Shown one piece after another: positions 3,024 through 11,903 of a stretch of DNA of 64,000 bases. The position numbers and the translations under genes were made by a program. The notes beneath the pieces are model-generated. The model was not told the DNA's origin. It saw only the letters and a program-made list of their open reading frames with translations, and did not search any database. Each line of letters begins with the position of its first letter. Within the stretch, counting starts at the first letter, position 1. This DNA is from Armatimonadota bacterium (lineage in GTDB: Bacteria > Armatimonadota > Fimbriimonadia > Fimbriimonadales > Fimbriimonadaceae): the NCBI GenBank assembly GCA_018268315.1, contig JAFDWU010000001.1, positions 473,280 to 537,279 of the forward strand, in the 5' to 3' direction.

Positions 3024-3632
3024 TTACAGTTCGCCTGCTCTCTGCAATACGATCGTGGCGACCAGGGTCGTCGGCAAATCTGTGTACTGCCCAATGCGCT
3101 CTAGGCAGCGAGCGAAATTTCGCTCCTGAAGATCGTCCCAGTTGGGCTGCCCTTTGCGAGCTTCCGCGATCAATTCAACTGCTTCCTCAAAGAACCGAGC
3201 TCTGTTCTGGGGCAAAGACTTGTTCTGAATGGCCGCATATCGGCGGCTGAGCTGCTCGTAAACCGATTCCCAGTTGGTGCGGGCCTCTAGTTCGGCGCGC
3301 ATTTTGACCATCGCCTGCTCTTGGAGCTTTTGCGCCGCTTCGTCACGGCGCTTCACCATCTCCCAGTCGTGCTCGGAATCGCCCTCGATTACTCGCGCGA
3401 CCGTCGGCTTGCCGGCAACCCTTGTCAGGTGCTGATCCATCGCCCGCTTGGTAGCCGAAACGCGGAGGTGACCCACAAGAGCGTTCTGGCCATGGGGAAG
3501 GCCTAGAACCACCACGTCGTTTTCTAGCACCAGCGGTTTTGCCGTGTTGAGCGCGGTCCAGACACCAACGCCCGCAACTTCCTTTCGGATTTCGGGTAGC
3601 GCCTGCGCCCAAAGCTGAATAACTTCGCTCAT
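3024..3632 (-). CDS. Free-standing DnaA domain-I-like protein
   Basis: A protein of 202 residues. Residues 1-85 (VIQLWAQALPEIRKEVAG, then KPLVLENDVVVLGLPHGQ) match by eye the layout of DnaA domain I: helix, helix, strand with LxLxxxxLxLxxP, then helices. DnaA domain I self-associates and contacts DnaB helicase and regulators such as DiaA. The remainder is helical and charged (residues 95-150), then a second helical block ending in TTLVATIVLQRAGEL. There is no AAA+ ATPase or DNA-binding domain IV, so this is not DnaA. It is cotranscribed with the downstream MBL hydrolase. The domain assignment comes from sequence pattern only. Confidence 0.6.
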   Translation of the reverse strand: MSEVIQLWAQALPEIRKEVAGVGVWTALNTAKPLVLENDVVVLGLPHGQNALVGHLRVSATKRAMDQHLTRVAGKPTVARVIEGDSEHDWEMVKRRDEAAQKLQEQAMVKMRAELEARTNWESVYEQLSRRYAAIQNKSLPQNRARFFEEAVELIAEARKGQPNWDDLQERNFARCLERIGQYTDLPTTLVATIVLQRAGEL

Positions 3633-3660
3633 TCGCTTACATTATGAGGCACCAACGCGC

Positions 3661-4200
3661 CTAATGCTTGGGGTTGAACGGGGGAACCACTCCAATGTAG
3701 GGCGTAAAGCGGCCCAGCCACCGGCCCTGAAACTGCGCTTCCCCCACCATCCCTTCTCCGCAACTGAAGAACACGTCCGGCACACACTCGAACTCCATCG
3801 GCCCCCTATACGGCGCGGCAAGCTTCACGTAATAGCGGACACTTTGCCCGACGGCTACGTCGTCTTCACTCGCGTGTTGATGCTCGCTGTTAAGCACATA
3901 CCGCGCGATGATCTTGCAGTGGGTTACCGTGCGCCGAAAGCCAAAGAACCGCGTGATGTGGATGGCAAACCCGAGCGCTATGCCCGCGACGATCATTCCA
4001 AATCCTACGAGAAACCCAAGCGCGGACAGCCCCATCTGTGCAAGGGCGCCGTTGCTTTTCGTTCCGTGGGTAGGTATGGAGAGAATGGTTACCCAGCCGA
4101 AGGTGAGACCAAGCAGGTAGGAGAATCCGATGAGGACGATTCCTCCCAAAACGAGGAATGCGATTAGCCCCGCTCTTCTTTGCTCTTGTCTCTGATCCAC
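3661..4200 (-). CDS. Two-helix membrane protein with C-terminal beta domain, hypothetical
   Basis: A protein of 179 residues with a short basic N-terminus and two strong membrane helices (residues about 11-38 and 56-84). An approximately 95-residue soluble C-terminal part follows, with alternating polar and hydrophobic strands (CKIIARYVLNSEHQ, SVRYYVKLAAPYRG). The layout recalls DUF3592-type proteins, in which a membrane pair carries a small beta domain, but I cannot confirm this. It lies 28 bases upstream of the DnaA-I-like gene on the same strand. The promoter would lie in the short divergent gap before the HMG-CoA lyase gene. Confidence 0.65.
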   Translation of the reverse strand: MDQRQEQRRAGLIAFLVLGGIVLIGFSYLLGLTFGWVTILSIPTHGTKSNGALAQMGLSALGFLVGFGMIVAGIALGFAIHITRFFGFRRTVTHCKIIARYVLNSEHQHASEDDVAVGQSVRYYVKLAAPYRGPMEFECVPDVFFSCGEGMVGEAQFQGRWLGRFTPYIGVVPPFNPKH

Positions 4201-4291
4201 CCGTATGGCCTCGCTTCTATCATCTTAACGCGGTGAGGAGCGCAAAACGTTGCGGGCGCACGGCGGGCAACGTAGAATAGCTGCTGGACTT

Positions 4292-5188
4292 ATGATGCGC
4301 ATTATCGAAGTTGGCCCGCGCGATGGCCTCCAAAATGAAAGTGTTCCCGTACCGACGGAGGTTAAATCGCGATTCGTCTCGGCTCTCTTCCAAGCTGGCC
4401 TGAAAGAAATTGAAGTTACGAGCTTTGTAAGCCCGAAGTGGGTTCCCCAACTTGGAGATGCCGCGGAACTCCTTGCCATGCTTGAGCCAGGACCGATAAC
4501 GAGCGTCCTTGTGCCTAACCAGAAGGGCTTGGAGCGAGCGCTGGAATGCGGAGTTAAGCGAATCGCCCTCTTTACTGCCGCAAGCGACGCATTCACCCAG
4601 AGGAACATCAACATGACGGTGCGCCAATCACTTGATGTGTTCAAAGGGCTTGCCGAAAGCTTTCGCGCCGCCCAACCGGATGGCTGGATTCGGGGCTACG
4701 TGAGCACCGCCTGGGAATGCCCCTACGCCGGACGAATCGCCATGACCCAAACCGTGAGCGTCGCCACAGAACTCATTGCGATGGGTGTGAATGAGGTGAG
4801 CATTGGAGATACCATCGGTGTCGCCGCTCCCACTGAGGTCAAAGCTTTAACGAAGCTGCTGCTGGCTGAAATCCCAGCCGAAAAGCTGGCCATGCACTTC
4901 CACGATACGCGCGGGACCGCAATCGCGAACGTTGCAGCTTCTTACGAGCTAGGCATCCGAGCCTTTGATTCCTCCGCCTCCGGGCTGGGCGGGTGCCCCT
5001 ACGCAAAAGGCGCAGGCGGAAATCTCGCCACCGAAGACTTGATCTACTTCCTTGAGCGCGAGGGCATTGCCACCGGTGTTAACCAGTTGAAGCTGGCGCA
5101 GGCAAGCCTTGAGGTGCTTTCGACTCTGGGGAAGGTCCCGACGGCAAAGGCGCAGATTGCTGCGCTGGCCGCCGCATCAGAGCAATAA
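4292..5188 (+). CDS. mvaB: Hydroxymethylglutaryl-CoA lyase
   Basis: A protein of 298 residues, the usual bacterial length. It cleaves 3-hydroxy-3-methylglutaryl-CoA to acetyl-CoA and acetoacetate, the last step of leucine degradation. The TIM-barrel start IIEVGPRDGLQNE carries the conserved arginine and metal-binding aspartate. HFHDTRG supplies the histidine metal ligands. The family signature with catalytic cysteine is GLGGCPYAKGAGGN. The start is the tandem ATGATG at 4292; the longer upstream frame lacks family similarity. No other leucine-degradation gene is in the window. Its last 110 bases overlap the convergent presenilin-like gene. Confidence 0.95.
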   Translation: MMRIIEVGPRDGLQNESVPVPTEVKSRFVSALFQAGLKEIEVTSFVSPKWVPQLGDAAELLAMLEPGPITSVLVPNQKGLERALECGVKRIALFTAASDAFTQRNINMTVRQSLDVFKGLAESFRAAQPDGWIRGYVSTAWECPYAGRIAMTQTVSVATELIAMGVNEVSIGDTIGVAAPTEVKALTKLLLAEIPAEKLAMHFHDTRGTAIANVAASYELGIRAFDSSASGLGGCPYAKGAGGNLATEDLIYFLEREGIATGVNQLKLAQASLEVLSTLGKVPTAKAQIAALAAASEQ

Positions 5189-6032
5189 AAACGCCCAGGA
5201 GGAGCAGCGTGAGCACAAGCGTCGCCAGCTTTTCGTCACGCTTTAGGCTGATCGCCCCCCAGTTGACGATAAGAATGCTGCCCGCAATCGGCACCATCGC
5301 CGGAAGCGCTCCAAGCGGAACCCCAAACACTCTGACGCCGCCAAGCACAAGCACCACGAGCAGGTAAAGCACGGTCAGCGGCCCCATCACCTTGAGCGTC
5401 TTTCGCGGATTCAAGCCGAACTTGAACAGCGCCACGAAGAACATCGACATGAAGAGATAATCCGCCGCGCCAACCAACGCCTGCGGACTCACCGAGACCC
5501 GTGGTGGTCGTCCCGGTGCTTCCTCCTTTTTCACCGAAGGGACGTGCACCGATACCTTTTCGAGCAACTTCCGGTCGGTCTGCGCAATCTTGCCCACGTG
5601 CCCAGTCGGCGTCAGCACGAAGATCATGTCGACGAACACAAGCGTGATCGCCACGGGAACGAGGATCGCTTTCTCCCGGAACAGAAAGGTCAGCAACACG
5701 CCAAGCCCAAGGCAAGCCGAAAGTAACCCTATCTGCCCCGCCGACTCCAGCGCCACAAGCCCAACACCACCGAGTTTTGAAGCGTAGACCACCGCCAGGG
5801 CCTGGACACCGGTACCAACCACCAACATGGCAAGCGCCACGAGAGGACGCCAAGGGTGAGCGGCTCCTATGAAGATTGCCGCTATGGTGGCGATCATGAA
5901 GACGATGCCGATGCCAAGGTTCACAAGGGCCAGCGTCGGCCCAATCGGCATTGAAACGAACGCAAGACAGGCCGTTAAGCCGAAGACCAACCCGGCAATC
6001 AGAAAGAAACCGGGCAGCCCACGCCACTTCAC
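5079..6032 (-). CDS. Multi-pass membrane protein, probable presenilin/SPP-like intramembrane aspartyl protease
   Basis: A protein of 317 residues with about nine hydrophobic segments. Three short motifs fall in the order and spacing of A22 (presenilin/signal peptide peptidase) proteases: an aspartate in one helix (LVFVDMIFVL, D135), a charged loop of about 45 residues, a second helix opening with VGAADYLFMS (D191), and GALPAMVP (242-248) near the end. Canonical versions are YD, GxGD and PAL. Here the first tyrosine is valine and the GxGD is GAAD, so activity is uncertain. The GTG start at 6032 lies 7 bases after the glycosyltransferase stop. The Pro/Ser-rich tail is encoded antisense to the 3' end of mvaB. 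Confidence 0.55.
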   Translation of the reverse strand: MKWRGLPGFFLIAGLVFGLTACLAFVSMPIGPTLALVNLGIGIVFMIATIAAIFIGAAHPWRPLVALAMLVVGTGVQALAVVYASKLGGVGLVALESAGQIGLLSACLGLGVLLTFLFREKAILVPVAITLVFVDMIFVLTPTGHVGKIAQTDRKLLEKVSVHVPSVKKEEAPGRPPRVSVSPQALVGAADYLFMSMFFVALFKFGLNPRKTLKVMGPLTVLYLLVVLVLGGVRVFGVPLGALPAMVPIAGSILIVNWGAISLKRDEKLATLVLTLLLLGVFIALMRRPAQQSAPLPSGPSPESKAPQGLPAPASTG

Positions 6033-6039
6033 GAGCAGG

Positions 6040-7212
6040 TTAAACAAGGCTCGCGACCGACCTCTTGTTACCGAGAACCCTCTCGTACACCTCAAGGACT
6101 CTATCCGCCATAGCGCTGGTGGTGTACTGCCGGGAAGATTCCGCCGCTCCGAGCGAGAGCTGCTGATACAGTTCCTCATCGCGCAGCACCTGGAGCACCT
6201 GCCCCGCGAAAACGGCATCGTCGTCAGGAACGATAACTCCGTTTAGACCCTCAACAACCGTTTGGCTGGCGCCTCCGCCACTCACCACCACAGCCGGCAA
6301 GCCATAGGTCATTGCCTCCGTCACCACAAGTCCTTGCGTCTCCGTCACGGAAGAGAAGACGAAGAGATCGGAGGCAGCGTAGTACTGATCCACCTCCGCC
6401 CGTTCAACAAAACCTACAAACTTAACACGATCTCCAATGCCAAGCGCTCTGACTTGGCGAGTAGCTTCCGCCCGAAACGCGCCATCTCCTACCAGCCAAA
6501 GTTCCGCGTTCGGCATCTCCGCGAACACCCTTGCCGCCATCTTGAAGAGAGTTTGCAGGTTCTTCTCCGCCGCCAGACGGCCAACATAAAGCATCACGCG
6601 GGTTTCGGGGCGCAGTCCCACTGCTTGCCGCGCCTCAGCGCGGGTGTACCGCCCGCCTCCGGGAACACCGGTGGGAATCACATTGATGGGTGTATCTACC
6701 GAGTGCCGCCTTAGCCACCGAGCCGCCGCTTCGCTTGGAGTAATGACCTCGTTCACCCGGTTGTAATAGAAGTTCGTGTGTTTGGCAATCCGAAACCGCA
6801 AGTAGCGCCGAGGCAGCAGCGGTATGTGGTGCGCATAGCGGTCGTAAAGCGTGTGATAGGTCGAAACGATCGGCAGATCATGCGATTCCGCCCATCGCAA
6901 GCCGACGAAGCCAAGAACCCAGGGCGTATGAGTGTGAATGAGGTCATATTCCTCCTCTCTAAACACACCCAGCATTCGATAGTAGGGCGGATAGGCAACT
7001 GGATACCCTTTCGCCCACGGGAATTCAAGCGCGCGAAAGCGGTGGCAATTCGGGTCGGGATCAGAAAACCCCGGATAACGGGCGGTAAAGAGATGGACCG
7101 AGTGGCCAGCAGCCCTTAACTCGCTGACAAGGGCATCGACGCTTACGCTAACCCCGTTCAAGATGGGGAGCGAGCTATCGCTGATCATTGCGATCCGCAA
7201 CGGCCCGCGCAT
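6040..7212 (-). CDS. GT4-family glycosyltransferase (diacylglycerol/phosphatidylinositol sugar transferase-like)
   Basis: A protein of 390 residues with the GT-B fold. The N-terminal domain starts LRIAMISDSSLPILNGVSVS with the glycine-rich acceptor loop. The C-terminal donor domain has MLYVGRLAAEKNLQTLFKM and the E-x7-E motif in TETQGLVVTEAM. This pattern is typical of glycosyltransferases that add glucose or mannose to membrane lipids such as diacylglycerol, using a nucleotide sugar. The ATG at 7212 is chosen because it follows the MerR-like gene stop by 4 bases; upstream codons are not family-like. The cotranscribed downstream partner is the presenilin-like protein. Substrate is inferred only from family. 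Confidence 0.9.
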   Translation of the reverse strand: MRGPLRIAMISDSSLPILNGVSVSVDALVSELRAAGHSVHLFTARYPGFSDPDPNCHRFRALEFPWAKGYPVAYPPYYRMLGVFREEEYDLIHTHTPWVLGFVGLRWAESHDLPIVSTYHTLYDRYAHHIPLLPRRYLRFRIAKHTNFYYNRVNEVITPSEAAARWLRRHSVDTPINVIPTGVPGGGRYTRAEARQAVGLRPETRVMLYVGRLAAEKNLQTLFKMAARVFAEMPNAELWLVGDGAFRAEATRQVRALGIGDRVKFVGFVERAEVDQYYAASDLFVFSSVTETQGLVVTEAMTYGLPAVVVSGGGASQTVVEGLNGVIVPDDDAVFAGQVLQVLRDEELYQQLSLGAAESSRQYTTSAMADRVLEVYERVLGNKRSVASLV

Positions 7213-7216
7213 TGGC

Positions 7217-7858
7217 TTACTCTTCGGGGAACCTGCCGTGCTCTTGAACAAACTTAACGATGTCGCTGAGCCGGAATCGACGCTGTCCGCCCTCCGTTCG
7301 ATGGTGCTGCAGCCATCCGCGGTTCGTATAGCGGCGAACCGTGGCAGGGACCACGCCCAGCAAGCGGCTGGTTTCTTCAAGCGTTAGCTGAGGATCAAGC
7401 AAGCGGCGAATCAAGTCCTGGCGGGACTCGCGGAATTCGCCTCGGTAGTAATTTGCGGTTGCGGCGTCGTCAAAGAAGCCGACGAGGAATTCGATGTTCT
7501 TGGGAAGGCTTTCCCACACTTCCTGCAGATCGGGATCAATCGTGTGCTCCGGCTGGGCCTCTTTGCGGGCGCGTCGTGGGCGCGGCGCGCTCATCGAAGT
7601 CTTGCGGAATCGCTTCTTCGATTCCGTTGCATCGGCATCTAAGCCGAGAGGCGCCTTTTCCTTTTCTTTATGAATGTAATTGGAAAGCTTTGGGAGCTCA
7701 ACTTCTAGATCCTTGGAATCCAGGTGCTCCAAACGGCCAGCACCGTTCGGGTTTGTGTCGAGAAAGGCACTCTCGATATAAGCCAATGGATCAAAGTTCT
7801 CGGTCTTCAAAAAAATGCTACTCCCTGCAAAATCGGAACCTTCAGTAGTTCCTACCAA
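7217..7858 (-). CDS. MerR/excisionase-type helix-turn-helix DNA-binding protein
   Basis: A protein of 213 residues. The C-terminal 60 residues form a MerR-like winged helix: LTLEETSRLLGVVPATVRRY, then the wing GWLQHHRTEGGQRRFRLSDI. The first 120 residues are polar and probably disordered, with a basic patch (PRPRRARKEAQ). A helical middle follows (VWESLPKNIEFLVGFFDD). It lacks the long C-terminal coiled coil of true MerR dimers. It is the first gene of an operon with a glycosyltransferase and a membrane protein, which it may regulate (inference). The TTG start at 7858 is uncertain because no clear ribosome site precedes it. Confidence 0.78.
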   Translation of the reverse strand: MVGTTEGSDFAGSSIFLKTENFDPLAYIESAFLDTNPNGAGRLEHLDSKDLEVELPKLSNYIHKEKEKAPLGLDADATESKKRFRKTSMSAPRPRRARKEAQPEHTIDPDLQEVWESLPKNIEFLVGFFDDAATANYYRGEFRESRQDLIRRLLDPQLTLEETSRLLGVVPATVRRYTNRGWLQHHRTEGGQRRFRLSDIVKFVQEHGRFPEE

Positions 7859-8914: not shown

Positions 8915-9609
8915 CCCAGCACCTTCGGGATATCGCTCAGGCTTGAAATATAGATGCCGGTCGACGACTGCGAGCGGTCGATCAGCAGCGCGCCAATCCC
9001 GAAGCCGCGCGCACCTTGGAAGTCATCAATAGGGCTGTCTCCAACGTGAACAATCTCGGATTTCTTTGCCCCAATCCGTTTCAGGGCAATCTCAAACAAG
9101 GCGGGATCAGGCTTTTCCGGTCCTTCCTCCAGAGAGGCGATCACGACATCGAAATACTCAGTGAGTCCAAGCCCGGCAACGATGCGATGCAACGAGTAAT
9201 CCCAATTAGAGAGGATGCCCATTCGCACCCCGAGCCGCTTCAGTTCCTGCAAGGTCGGGATTACGTCGGGAAAGACATCAAAGTATTCGCGTGTGTCGTA
9301 CAACCTCTGCCGCGCTTCTTCCATAAAGCGCCCCACATCCATCGGCCACCGGCAATGGCTCATCCAATCGGAGGTCAAGTCATCCCAAAAACTATCCCCA
9401 GCCTTAGGGTCGCGGGTCAGGTTTATCTCCCGGTAAAGGCTCCATCGAGACCGAAGCATTGACTGGTATACGTCCCCTTCTGCCTCCGAAGCCGGAAGCC
9501 CCACCGCTTGCGCGCACTCAACTGCAAATCGCGCGGGCGCCCACCGAACGTCAATCAACGTGTGAGCAGCATCAAACAGGATATAGGGCGGACGAACGGG
9601 CAAGTTCAA
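8902..9609 (-). CDS. HAD-superfamily hydrolase
   Basis: A protein of 235 residues with the haloacid dehalogenase core. Motif I is YILFDAAHTLIDV, in which the usual second aspartate of DxD is alanine, as in several dehalogenase/REG-2-like branches. Motif II is MGILSNWD, and motifs III/IV are KPDPALFEIALKRIG and VHVGDSPIDDFQGARGFG. A helical cap lies at residues 20-110. Likely a small-molecule phosphatase; substrate unknown. The start is TTG at 9609, just outside the divergent secreted-protein gene. It overlaps queA by 13 bases at its 3' end, so the pair is an operon. Confidence 0.88.
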   Translation of the reverse strand: MNLPVRPPYILFDAAHTLIDVRWAPARFAVECAQAVGLPASEAEGDVYQSMLRSRWSLYREINLTRDPKAGDSFWDDLTSDWMSHCRWPMDVGRFMEEARQRLYDTREYFDVFPDVIPTLQELKRLGVRMGILSNWDYSLHRIVAGLGLTEYFDVVIASLEEGPEKPDPALFEIALKRIGAKKSEIVHVGDSPIDDFQGARGFGIGALLIDRSQSSTGIYISSLSDIPKVLGWTS

Positions 9610-9687
9610 GCTGCCACCATTATGGTTCGGATGCTTTCTGGGCCTTTCGACACACTATTCAAAACGCCTAAAGCGTACACTCCGTAT

Positions 9688-10410
9688 ATGCGACTTTTGA
9701 CCGCTGTGCTTTTGGCATGCGCCGTTTTTGCGCACGCATTCAGCCAGCACAATGCGGACGCCCCGAAAGCCGAGACCCCCTACACAATTTCCCACAAGCC
9801 CATCGTTGGCGACATGAAGAAATACAAGATTCGCGGCGAACTGACGATCGCAAATCTGAATCTGCTCATCACGGCGACAATCGTCCGCAAAGTCATCGAG
9901 GTGAAAGACAACGGCGAGAATGTAGTCGAAGAATCGCAAGAGGACACCGTCATCAAAATCGGTGATCAGGAGGTGCCGCCCCAACATGAGGCTTCCCTCG
10001 TAGTTCATTACGGAAAATTTGGAGAGGTTCTAGACCTTAAGAAAGAAGGCGCCGTACTGCCCGCAGAAGCTCGCCTCGAAGTTATTTCAAACATCTACTT
10101 TCCAAAGAAAGCGGTGATCGTGGGCGAAAGCTGGAGCGTCGACATCCCTGCGAACGAAAAGATGCAGACGGTGGCCCTAAGGGCAACTTTCAAACTTTCC
10201 GGCGTTGAAACCGTCTCTGGGCATCAAGTCTTCAAGATCGACTACGAATCTCACGAAACCGAAGGGCAGCAGCCCGCGAAGGTTGAAGGAACCTGTTGGC
10301 TAGATACCCAAACTGGGTGTACGGTTCAAGATGAAGCCACGTGGACGGACATGCCCTCAGCAGGAGCGAATACCATGAGTGGCAAAGTCGCCCTTCACCT
10401 TCAAGAATAG
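9688..10410 (+). CDS. Secreted protein of the tandem paralogue family, copy 1
   Basis: A protein of 240 residues. The ATG at 9688 gives a signal peptide (LLTAVLLACAVFAHAFS) and is preferred over longer upstream frames. The mature part is beta-rich. It shares a pattern with the next two genes: a KYKIRGELTIANLN-type first strand, VIEVKDNGENVVEESQ, and a C-terminal ACTIVE-like strand set with TCWLDTQTGCTVQDEATWT. It is clearly more divergent than copies 2 and 3. No enzyme motif is visible. The resemblance to DUF6263-type secreted proteins is only by general style. First gene of a plus-strand run of three, divergent from the HAD gene. Confidence 0.8.
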   Translation: MRLLTAVLLACAVFAHAFSQHNADAPKAETPYTISHKPIVGDMKKYKIRGELTIANLNLLITATIVRKVIEVKDNGENVVEESQEDTVIKIGDQEVPPQHEASLVVHYGKFGEVLDLKKEGAVLPAEARLEVISNIYFPKKAVIVGESWSVDIPANEKMQTVALRATFKLSGVETVSGHQVFKIDYESHETEGQQPAKVEGTCWLDTQTGCTVQDEATWTDMPSAGANTMSGKVALHLQE

Positions 10411-10451
10411 ATTTCCCGTATAGATCGAAATTTCAATTAATAAGGAAGCAC

Positions 10452-11144
10452 ATGAACAGAAGAACTCTCGTAGCACTCGTACTTAGTCTTGCCATTGTGG
10501 GCGTCGCGAACGCCGACTACACCTTCAAGCCGAATATCAAGGTGAAGGATGATTTTCACTATAAGCTGAAAGGAACCTTGCAGATTGCCGGCCAGGAAGC
10601 CACGCTTGATGGGACTCTCGATCGCAAGATCGTAGAGGTTAAAGAGAACGGCGATTACACGGTTGAGGAAACCCAATCCAACACCAAGGTTCAATTCGGC
10701 GGCCAGGAAATGAACCTGCCGGACAACACGAGCACAACCAGCTACACCGCAGCCGGCGATATCGTTGAAATCAAGTCGGACAAGGTTGATCCGCTTGAGT
10801 ATCGTTTCGCTAACATGAGCCTCTTCCACCTTCCGGATGCGGCCGTTGCCGAAGGCGGAACCTGGACCTACGAAGCAAAGTCCAACGACAAGACCGGCGC
10901 GGTTGGGTTCAAGGCGACTTACAAGGTCGTTGGCGAAGAGAAGATCGGGAATCGAACAACCGTCAAGATTTCCATGAGCATTAAGGAAAGCGAAGGCTCC
11001 GAGCCGGCTTCCAGCGAATGCCTCCTTTGGCTCGACACAACCGACATGATGCCGGTGAAGACCGAAAACAATTTGACCAACGCCCCAATTCCTGGCGCAC
11101 CGGGACCTGTATCCGGAAAGATAGGAACCACGCGGGAAGGCTAA
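10452..11144 (+). CDS. Secreted protein of the tandem paralogue family, copy 2
   Basis: A protein of 230 residues. A strong ribosome site (TAAGGAAG at 10441) precedes the ATG at 10452. The signal peptide is RRTLVALVLSLAIVGVANA. The mature protein (YTFKPNIKVKDDFHYKLKG, then FGGQEMNLPD, then GTWTYEAKSNDKTGAVGFKA) is closely similar to copy 3 along its whole length. It is probably a periplasmic or surface beta protein of unknown role. No cysteines or catalytic motif stand out. An 8-bp perfect stem follows the stop codon. Confidence 0.85.
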   Translation: MNRRTLVALVLSLAIVGVANADYTFKPNIKVKDDFHYKLKGTLQIAGQEATLDGTLDRKIVEVKENGDYTVEETQSNTKVQFGGQEMNLPDNTSTTSYTAAGDIVEIKSDKVDPLEYRFANMSLFHLPDAAVAEGGTWTYEAKSNDKTGAVGFKATYKVVGEEKIGNRTTVKISMSIKESEGSEPASSECLLWLDTTDMMPVKTENNLTNAPIPGAPGPVSGKIGTTREG

Positions 11145-11146
11145 CT

Positions 11147-11165
11147 ATCTTGGTCATACCAAGAT
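11147..11165 (+). terminator. Short perfect hairpin after paralogue copy 2
   Basis: ATCTTGGT, a 3-base loop and ACCAAGAT form an 8-bp perfect stem 2 bases after the copy 2 stop codon. No run of T follows, so it may be an RNA processing or stability element, or an operator for copy 3, rather than a true terminator. Confidence 0.4.
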
Positions 11166-11210
11166 GGCTCAGTCTGGTATAGGTTAAACAACAATTAGCA
11201 GATAAGCAAC

Positions 11211-11903
11211 ATGAATACTAAAACCCTTTTAGCCCTCGTCCTAACTGCTGCCCTTGTGGGGACAGCAAACGCCGATTACACCTTTAAGCGAAGCTTCAAA
11301 GTAAAGGACACTTTCAAGTTTCAGCTAAAGGGAGACCTCCAGGTAGCTGGCCAAAGCACCACGTTCACTGCGGACGTGGAGCAGAAGATCGTTGAAGTGA
11401 AAGACAACGGCGATTACACCGAGGAATCCACCCAAACCAACTTCAAACTGAACTTTGGTGGCCAGGAAATGCCGGTGCCGGACAGCACTTCGACCACCAG
11501 TTTCACCGCGTCGGGCGACATCATCGAGATCAAGGCCGACAAGGTCGATCCGAGTTCCTACCGCCTTGCGAACCTTGATTCGTTCCACCTGCCGGAGAAA
11601 CCGGTTGCCGATGGCGCGACCTGGACTTACGAAGCCAAATCCAACGATAAGACAGGCGCGGTAGCCTACAAGGCTACGTACAAGGTCTCCGGTGAGGAGA
11701 AAATTGGAACCCATCAGACGGTAAAGATCATCGTGAGCATTAAGGAAAGCGAGGGTACGGACCCTGCTGCCAGCGAAGGCACAATCTGGATTGATACCAC
11801 TGATCAGATGCCGGTGAAGGCGGAAGCCAACTGGACCAATGCCCCGATCCCCGGCGCTCCCGGCCCGATCAACGGCAAGGTCACTCAGACTCGACAAGAC
11901 TAA
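11211..11903 (+). CDS. Secreted protein of the tandem paralogue family, copy 3
   Basis: A protein of 230 residues, the same length as copy 2, with roughly two-thirds identity by eye. The signal peptide is KTLLALVLTAALVGTANA. Shared blocks are YTFKRSFKVKDTFKFQLKG, IVEVKDNGDYTEESTQTNF, FGGQEMPVPDSTSTTSF, DIIEIKADKVDPSSYRLANL and NAPIPGAPGP near the C-terminus. The tandem arrangement and similarity indicate a recent duplication. Function is unknown. The gene ends at a strong 13-bp hairpin shared with the convergent dsbD-like gene. Confidence 0.85.
   Translation: MNTKTLLALVLTAALVGTANADYTFKRSFKVKDTFKFQLKGDLQVAGQSTTFTADVEQKIVEVKDNGDYTEESTQTNFKLNFGGQEMPVPDSTSTTSFTASGDIIEIKADKVDPSSYRLANLDSFHLPEKPVADGATWTYEAKSNDKTGAVAYKATYKVSGEEKIGTHQTVKIIVSIKESEGTDPAASEGTIWIDTTDQMPVKAEANWTNAPIPGAPGPINGKVTQTRQD

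Follow-up and report, generated by a model that had tools for sequence, protein, structure and literature searches.

The locus presented here raises the question of whether a bacterium can encode a protease of the presenilin type, a class that is described from eukaryotes and archaea in the literature consulted (PMC2947513, PMC9263693, PMC7768045, PMC4343526, PMC9360617). The window, which is the whole stretch of 64,000 nucleotides analyzed from contig JAFDWU010000001.1 of an Armatimonadota bacterium (assembly GCA_018268315.1), carries at 5,079–6,032 on the minus strand an ORF that the initial annotation, made from the letters alone, regarded as a presenilin-like intramembrane aspartyl protease with altered motifs. 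Our search of the literature, which was thin on subscription journals, found no published report of a presenilin-like family in Armatimonadota. One publication mentions a “bacterial presenilin homologue” that is not named there. We take it to be, probably, archaeal PSH. With a probability of about 0.8, we conclude that the product of the gene is a bacterial intramembrane aspartyl protease with the presenilin/SPP fold, belonging to a phylum-wide family that went undetected in the searched family libraries.

According to the ORF listing and its translation, the gene starts with GTG at 6,032, ends with a stop at 5,079–5,081 and encodes a 317 aa protein; other in-frame starts are possible upstream of this GTG. 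All features of the gene lie on the minus strand. The first catalytic-type aspartate, D135, is found in VFVDM (codon at 5,628–5,630) and the second, D191, in VGAADY, exactly 56 residues further on (G188-A-A-D191 at 5,460–5,471). GALPAMVP follows near the end of the protein (L243-P-A-M-V-P248, with P244-A-M246 at 5,295–5,303). The AlphaFold2 model was built on 36 sequences with a mean pLDDT of 89.7 and a pTM of 0.85, and it contains nine long helices (6–23, 34–57, 63–84, 89–115, 121–140, 189–204, 209–230, 246–256 and 265–286), as many as the hydrophobic segments read at first from the translation. The aspartates fall, as also anticipated, one in each of two helices (D135 in 121–140, D191 in 189–204). 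The loop between the aspartate helices is predicted to hold two short helices (145–152 and 154–160) and, according to DSSP, a beta hairpin just ahead of the second aspartate helix, with strands at 162–170 and 178–187 (residues 162–187, 5,472–5,549). Concerning the GxGD motif, both glycines had been thought to be changed; the second is indeed replaced, while the first, G188, is retained. Thus the window protein reads GAAD in place of a literal GxGD and VD in place of YD, and the PAL position is occupied by PAM.

Structural comparison of this model was performed with two tools. Foldseek returned human PSEN1 as its first row (probability 0.96, E-value = 0.047), and no row reached an E-value of 0.001 or less. 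Compared by VIA with 997 chains, the model had only presenilin or SPPL2a in its first 16 rows, with Z from 13.7 to 9.4; the best row was PSEN1 chain 6idf_B (Z = 13.7, 189 residues, 2.8 Å) and SPPL2a appeared at Z = 11.9 and 11.5. Row 17 was 8jkv, titled “membrane proteins”, at Z = 6.8, with HGSNAT entries after it. Archaeal PSH chains were absent from the listed VIA rows, which is uninformative either way. Helical models may, by the tool's own warning, reach such Z values without kinship, and it is therefore the gap of 2.6 Z and the uniformity of the first 16 rows that carry the fold argument. The same inflation of structural scores by helical bundles would be expected if the protein were an unrelated polytopic membrane protein, similar to presenilin by convergence or chance; the occupation of the first 16 rows by one superfamily and the presence of three motif sites in the correct order and register argue against such a coincidence.

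The predicted register supports the motif assignments. The VIA alignment covers residues 34–261 on PSEN1 73–450, so that P244 falls on P433 if the alignment is ungapped, and P244-A-M246 would be the equivalent of presenilin-1 433–435 (register 261 on 450 and 262 on 451). A model of residues 117–263 alone (pLDDT 86.1, pTM 0.68) was used for register only, as by itself it does not stand apart from class C GPCRs (Z = 6.7 against 6.3; Foldseek E-value 1.1 or worse). Its residues 1–146 were placed on 239–451 in five PSEN1 rows and 1–147 on 239–452 in two, seven among the 50 rows listed, and this register (117 on 239) puts D135 on PSEN1 D257, again if ungapped. The presenilin-like assignment is largely supported, with a predicted fold match to PSEN1 and SPPL2a and with D135 and P244 on D257 and P433, respectively.

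The ORF is real and not a product of chance, because homologues were detected in 41/41 near genomes (that of the window and those of 40 relatives) and, with a 30-row profile, in 267 of the 291 genomes searched in the phylum Armatimonadota, representing 151 of 156 genera and mostly with one match each. The record titles of the relatives name Armatimonadota, for instance Fimbriimonadales, Fimbriimonadaceae and Chthonomonadia. A wider scan of contigs with a single peptide pattern gave 87 pattern matches and 39 relatives, labeled as Armatimonadota, its classes or MAGs except for two labeled Actinomycetota (L115 and L116). The counterparts of these two (L076 and L070) come from genomes placed in the window's phylum, and L115 and L116 are probably mislabeled MAGs. 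A search of plasmids with the window protein gave no match. No family match was found in two 1.5 Mb genomes (G147 and G148) or in any of the three genomes sampled from one family (G205–G207), both sets being rated 97% complete; either loss or strong divergence would account for these absences.

Conservation within the family is observed directly. In 48 rows taken across the phylum, the invariant columns were two glycines, one proline, both aspartates, one asparagine and one glutamate. Motifs were counted in 99 distinct members drawn from the fetched loci. The initial annotation would have been weakened if the closest homologues lacked both aspartates; when checked, both of them were kept in 99/99 members, as was the leading glycine of the second motif. 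This motif reads GxGD in 38 members and GxAD in 61 (GPAD 58, GPGD 15, GVGD 13, GLGD 7, GFGD 2, GFAD 2, GMGD 1 and GAAD 1). An exact PAL is present at the third site in at least 64/99 members, the remainder having mainly PGL, PLL, PAM or PAI, and the proline is missing in only 3/99. The aspartate, GxGD or GxAD, and PAL thus follow one another across the family in the order known from presenilins (YD, GxGD, PAL), though a tyrosine precedes the first aspartate in just 3/99 members. Unaltered GxGD and PAL occur in many relatives, and the altered motifs of the window protein are therefore lineage changes within a real family.

These counts also bear on whether the family cuts peptide bonds at all. 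A presenilin-fold pseudoprotease could use the fold and the aspartates for the passage of ions or lipids, or as a chaperone or scaffold of membrane proteins, and this would suit the prevalence of GxAD and the scarcity of YD, as well as the slowing of archaeal PSH by a G-to-A change at the same position that is described in the literature. We consider it quite unlikely, as both aspartates persist in all 99 members despite variable flanks, with 38 members retaining GxGD and at least 64 having an exact PAL, and as the glycine/alanine switch adjoining the second aspartate involved at least four changes in a quick tree (with 37 open branches) in which neither aspartate was ever lost.

Sequence comparison with known families gave links that have to be read with caution. 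The window protein had no Pfam or NCBIfam match except one chance match (E-value = 2.6), and no member exceeded any shown Pfam or NCBIfam cut-off. When 30 members were scanned singly, PF01080 (Presenilin) appeared in two, at best with an E-value of 0.21; in 48 members it appeared once among the matches listed (E-value = 0.038). Unrelated families outscore it in single members (PF13886 with E-value = 0.0029 and TIGR02206 with E-value = 0.0054, among the matches listed). The single-member matches to PF01080 therefore prove nothing, given that the scores of unrelated families equal or exceed theirs. A blind scan of all 291 genomes with the PF01080 profile gave 24 places at an E-value of 0.1 or better, none over the cut-off, and the profile also matched 4/14 control genomes weakly. 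Of the 20 places that were fetched, eight are the family gene, from five genera; they are not independent, as one genus contributes three of them and another genus two. About 0.01 of the 24 places would be expected to be the family gene by chance, on our estimate of one family gene per approximately 3,000 genes. Six of the eight matches begin at the GLGD stretch, three of these extending to P(A)LL, and the other two span the first aspartate.

Profile searches against the PDB sequences were mostly negative for A22 proteases: profiles A1 and A2 found no A22 chain, a 27-row profile of the first-aspartate segment found no presenilin or other A22 match, and single-sequence searches with two relatives (L080 and L067) found no A22 match. 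The exception was a ten-member profile (A5) of the GLGD/GPGD/GFGD type, whose only PDB matches were a presenilin-1 construct (E-value = 0.0018) and presenilin-2 (E-value = 0.026); the alignments include GLGDFIF and the PAL site. The ten rows had been picked for a match to the Presenilin HMM or for a GLGD-like reading, their own or that of near relatives, so these E-values are flattering and serve for the register only; the presenilin-1 match is a C-terminal construct, and the full-length PSEN1 chain is absent from the list. A 59-aa segment of one relative (L160) likewise matched only presenilin-1 chains, with its aspartate on the aspartate of “YDLVAVLCPKGPLR”. This relative had been picked for its prior match to the Presenilin HMM, and its E-values are flattering and good for register only; in the best chain the matching domain by itself has an i-Evalue of 3.2, and all six matches are versions of one protein. 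The lack of any A22 match with the full profiles, and the equally good scores of unrelated Pfam families in single members, are what an unrelated membrane protein would lead us to expect; the enrichment of the family gene in the blind Presenilin-HMM scan, added to the structural and motif evidence above, makes that explanation very improbable. The family is very probably related to presenilin and SPP.

The comparison with PF06550 that the initial annotation proposed came out negative: none of the 291 genomes held a place over the cut-off, and none of the five weak places is the family gene. An archaeal-type PSH in the genomes of the phylum was rejected on this result. Because the literal GxGD, the YD, the helix plan of A22 and the cut-offs of the libraries are not matched, the family was not filed under PF01080, PF06550 or A22, and we prefer to regard it as a new family with the presenilin/SPP fold. 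It is likely a third, bacterial branch of that fold, carried in nearly every sampled genus, with a changed helix plan and with a catalytic glycine, at the PSEN1 G384 site, that has switched between glycine and alanine at least four times as the aspartates stayed fixed.

The helix plan deserves a closer description. In presenilin the first aspartate lies in helix 6. The family is about 300 aa long and has no counterpart of the large loop of presenilin. As in A22 proteases, the two invariant aspartates of the model lie in adjacent membrane helices, and the catalytic core has the predicted presenilin/SPP fold (Z = 13.7 with PSEN1 and 11.9 with SPPL2a). They occupy helices 5 and 6, however, and not helices 6 and 7 as in the A22 plan; the first aspartate helix is preceded by four long helices, and the PAL-side helix is followed by an additional one. 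Descriptions of presenilin count nine helices and place GxGD in the seventh and PAL in the ninth (PMC2947513 among the sources). Compared with presenilin-1 and presenilin-2 (PF01080), the family is alike in the predicted fold of the core and in having the aspartate, GLGDFIF and PAL in register, a register that comes partly from relatives; it differs in having four helices instead of five before the first aspartate and an additional C-terminal helix, in a membrane orientation that is probably opposite, and in the lack of any match above the PF01080 cut-off. With SPP and SPPL2a (A22B) it shares the model match and the inferred orientation of the loop, but no match was detected at the sequence level, GxAD replaces GxGD in 61/99 members and the helix plan is another one. 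Archaeal PSH/MCMJR1 resembles the family as a small prokaryotic enzyme and differs in belonging to PF06550; it also lacks an exact PAL, having PPL according to one source (PMC2947513). Type IV prepilin peptidases (A24), the bacterial GxGD proteases, likewise have two aspartates and a GxGD motif, and according to the same source their aspartates lie in soluble regions, several helices apart (PMC2947513). Identity with a prepilin peptidase was rejected, no A24 family being found in the scan of 30 members, nor in the best 25 of the 37 matches in the scan of 48.

In contrast to its relatives, the window's own copy is strongly diverged. GAAD is unique to it among the 99 members, its end branch, at 1.72 where the median is 0.57, ranks fourth in length among 98 (in the quick tree with 37 open branches), and its mean identity to the loci of 16 relatives, two of which carry the same gene, is 34.6%, against 37.6–48.3% for the relatives' own means. 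It alters 7 of the 35 columns that are conserved at 85% or more, ranking second among 30 rows and showing the most alterations within its own family. Five neighboring genes of the same genome, on the other hand, show ordinary divergence. All this could mean that the family is an active protease and that the copy in the window is degenerating and no longer works, and the fast divergence with the changed columns would also fit relaxation. We hold such a decay to be rather unlikely, as the frame is open with both aspartates and G188 in place, the model is confident, and the gene is the sole family match in a genome that is rated 100% complete. Glycine-to-alanine changes known from related enzymes (G219A in archaeal PSH, G384A in presenilin and a like change in SPPL2b) are described in the literature as giving slower enzymes. 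The unique GAAD and the long branch probably go along with a slower activity or altered substrates, if the protein is active as we infer, and from the sequence a slowed or retuned activity appears likelier than loss because the copy keeps both aspartates. The natural alanine at the site equivalent to G384A, which impairs presenilin-1, may help to reveal the compensating changes with which such enzymes stay active.

Regarding mechanism, both aspartates are essential in known members and PAL is involved in substrate binding, as stated in two sources (PMC7768045 and PMC2947513). The analogy suggests D135 and D191 as the catalytic pair: placed on neighboring helices, they would activate a water molecule and cut the substrate helix within the membrane. 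Like PAL in gamma-secretase, the PAM turn that precedes the following helix would keep the unfolded strand of the substrate in place, and the hairpin at 162–187 would probably do the same. Lysine and arginine amount to approximately 0.20 per residue on one side of the membrane (the N-terminus, 55–65, 113–125, 203–213 and 257–268) and to 0.08 on the other, as computed from the rows of profile A1; this bias argues for a location of the loop at 141–187, between the aspartate helices, outside the cytoplasm, in the orientation of SPP rather than that of presenilin. SPP and SPPL cleave type II proteins and presenilins type I, according to the literature (among PMC7768045 and PMC2947513), and if the loop orientation is SPP-like as inferred, the substrates are likely to be N-in (type II) helices, for example those of anchors or cleaved signal peptides.

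Genomic context was surveyed in 80 loci representing 67 distinct family genes, the remaining 13 being the same gene twice, with Pfam names of neighbors taken from one member each. In the window, the next ORF upstream, at 6,040–7,380 on the same strand and after a gap of 7 nt, is that of a GT4-family glycosyltransferase (PF13439 and PF00534), whose true start is probably internal to the ORF; a HTH_17/MerR-type regulator (Pfam) follows at 7,217–7,858 on the minus strand, and an HMGL-like gene (PF00682) converges at 4,250–5,188 on the plus strand. The 3′ end of the latter overlaps the proline-rich C-terminus of the presenilin-like gene by 110 bp of convergent coding sequence (5,079–5,188). A link of the gene to the glycosyltransferase and the MerR-type regulator had been proposed; these neighbors are real, but the glycosyltransferase stands immediately upstream in the same orientation in only 18/80 loci and the regulator upstream in only 16/80, near the window's kin. 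QueA (15/80), HAD (13/80) and the convergent HMGL gene (approximately 15/80) are also found near the window's kin. Outside them, leucyl-tRNA synthetase lies directly downstream in 14/80 loci, while 19/80 have a divergent ANTAR response regulator at most 500 bp upstream and 16/80 a GAF histidine kinase. In other classes the family gene stands directly before leucyl-tRNA synthetase and is at times divergent from the ANTAR regulator with its GAF histidine kinase (L062, L067, L070, L071, L073, L076, L078, L082, L084 and L085). A dedicated adjacent partner or substrate is unsupported, as the neighbors vary by lineage, and this variation favors a general role. Changing and mostly housekeeping neighbors would suggest a general clearance of the membrane with no single dedicated partner.

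Other membrane proteases were also surveyed. S49 (SppA) exceeded its cut-off in none of 21 near genomes, the window's own included, with weak matches in two of them, while M50 proteases are present in 21/21. Across the phylum S49 was over the cut-off in 110/291 genomes, and at least 86 of these 110 also carry the presenilin-like family, because only 24 of the 291 genomes are without it. A role of the family as a substitute for SppA is therefore rejected phylum-wide and is conceivable only for the window's lineage, where the family would be a candidate for the clearance of signal peptides beside the M50 proteases.

Presenilin is the core of an enzyme tied to Alzheimer's disease, and the family shares its predicted shape and both catalytic-type aspartates. 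If the present reading is true, a phylum-wide bacterial family would widen the range of presenilin-type proteases, inform the question of how gamma-secretase and SPP arose and offer small homologues for structural work. Archaeal roots of SPP and presenilin are reportedly the subject of a study by Raut et al. in 2021.

Two further regions of the window can be mentioned. At 3,024–4,200 on the minus strand there are two ORFs of 202 and 179 aa without a Pfam match at an E-value of 0.001. Finally, 9,508–11,903 holds three related ORFs in tandem (300, 267 and 230 aa), the first of them without a Pfam match, which look secreted and all fall in one similarity cluster.
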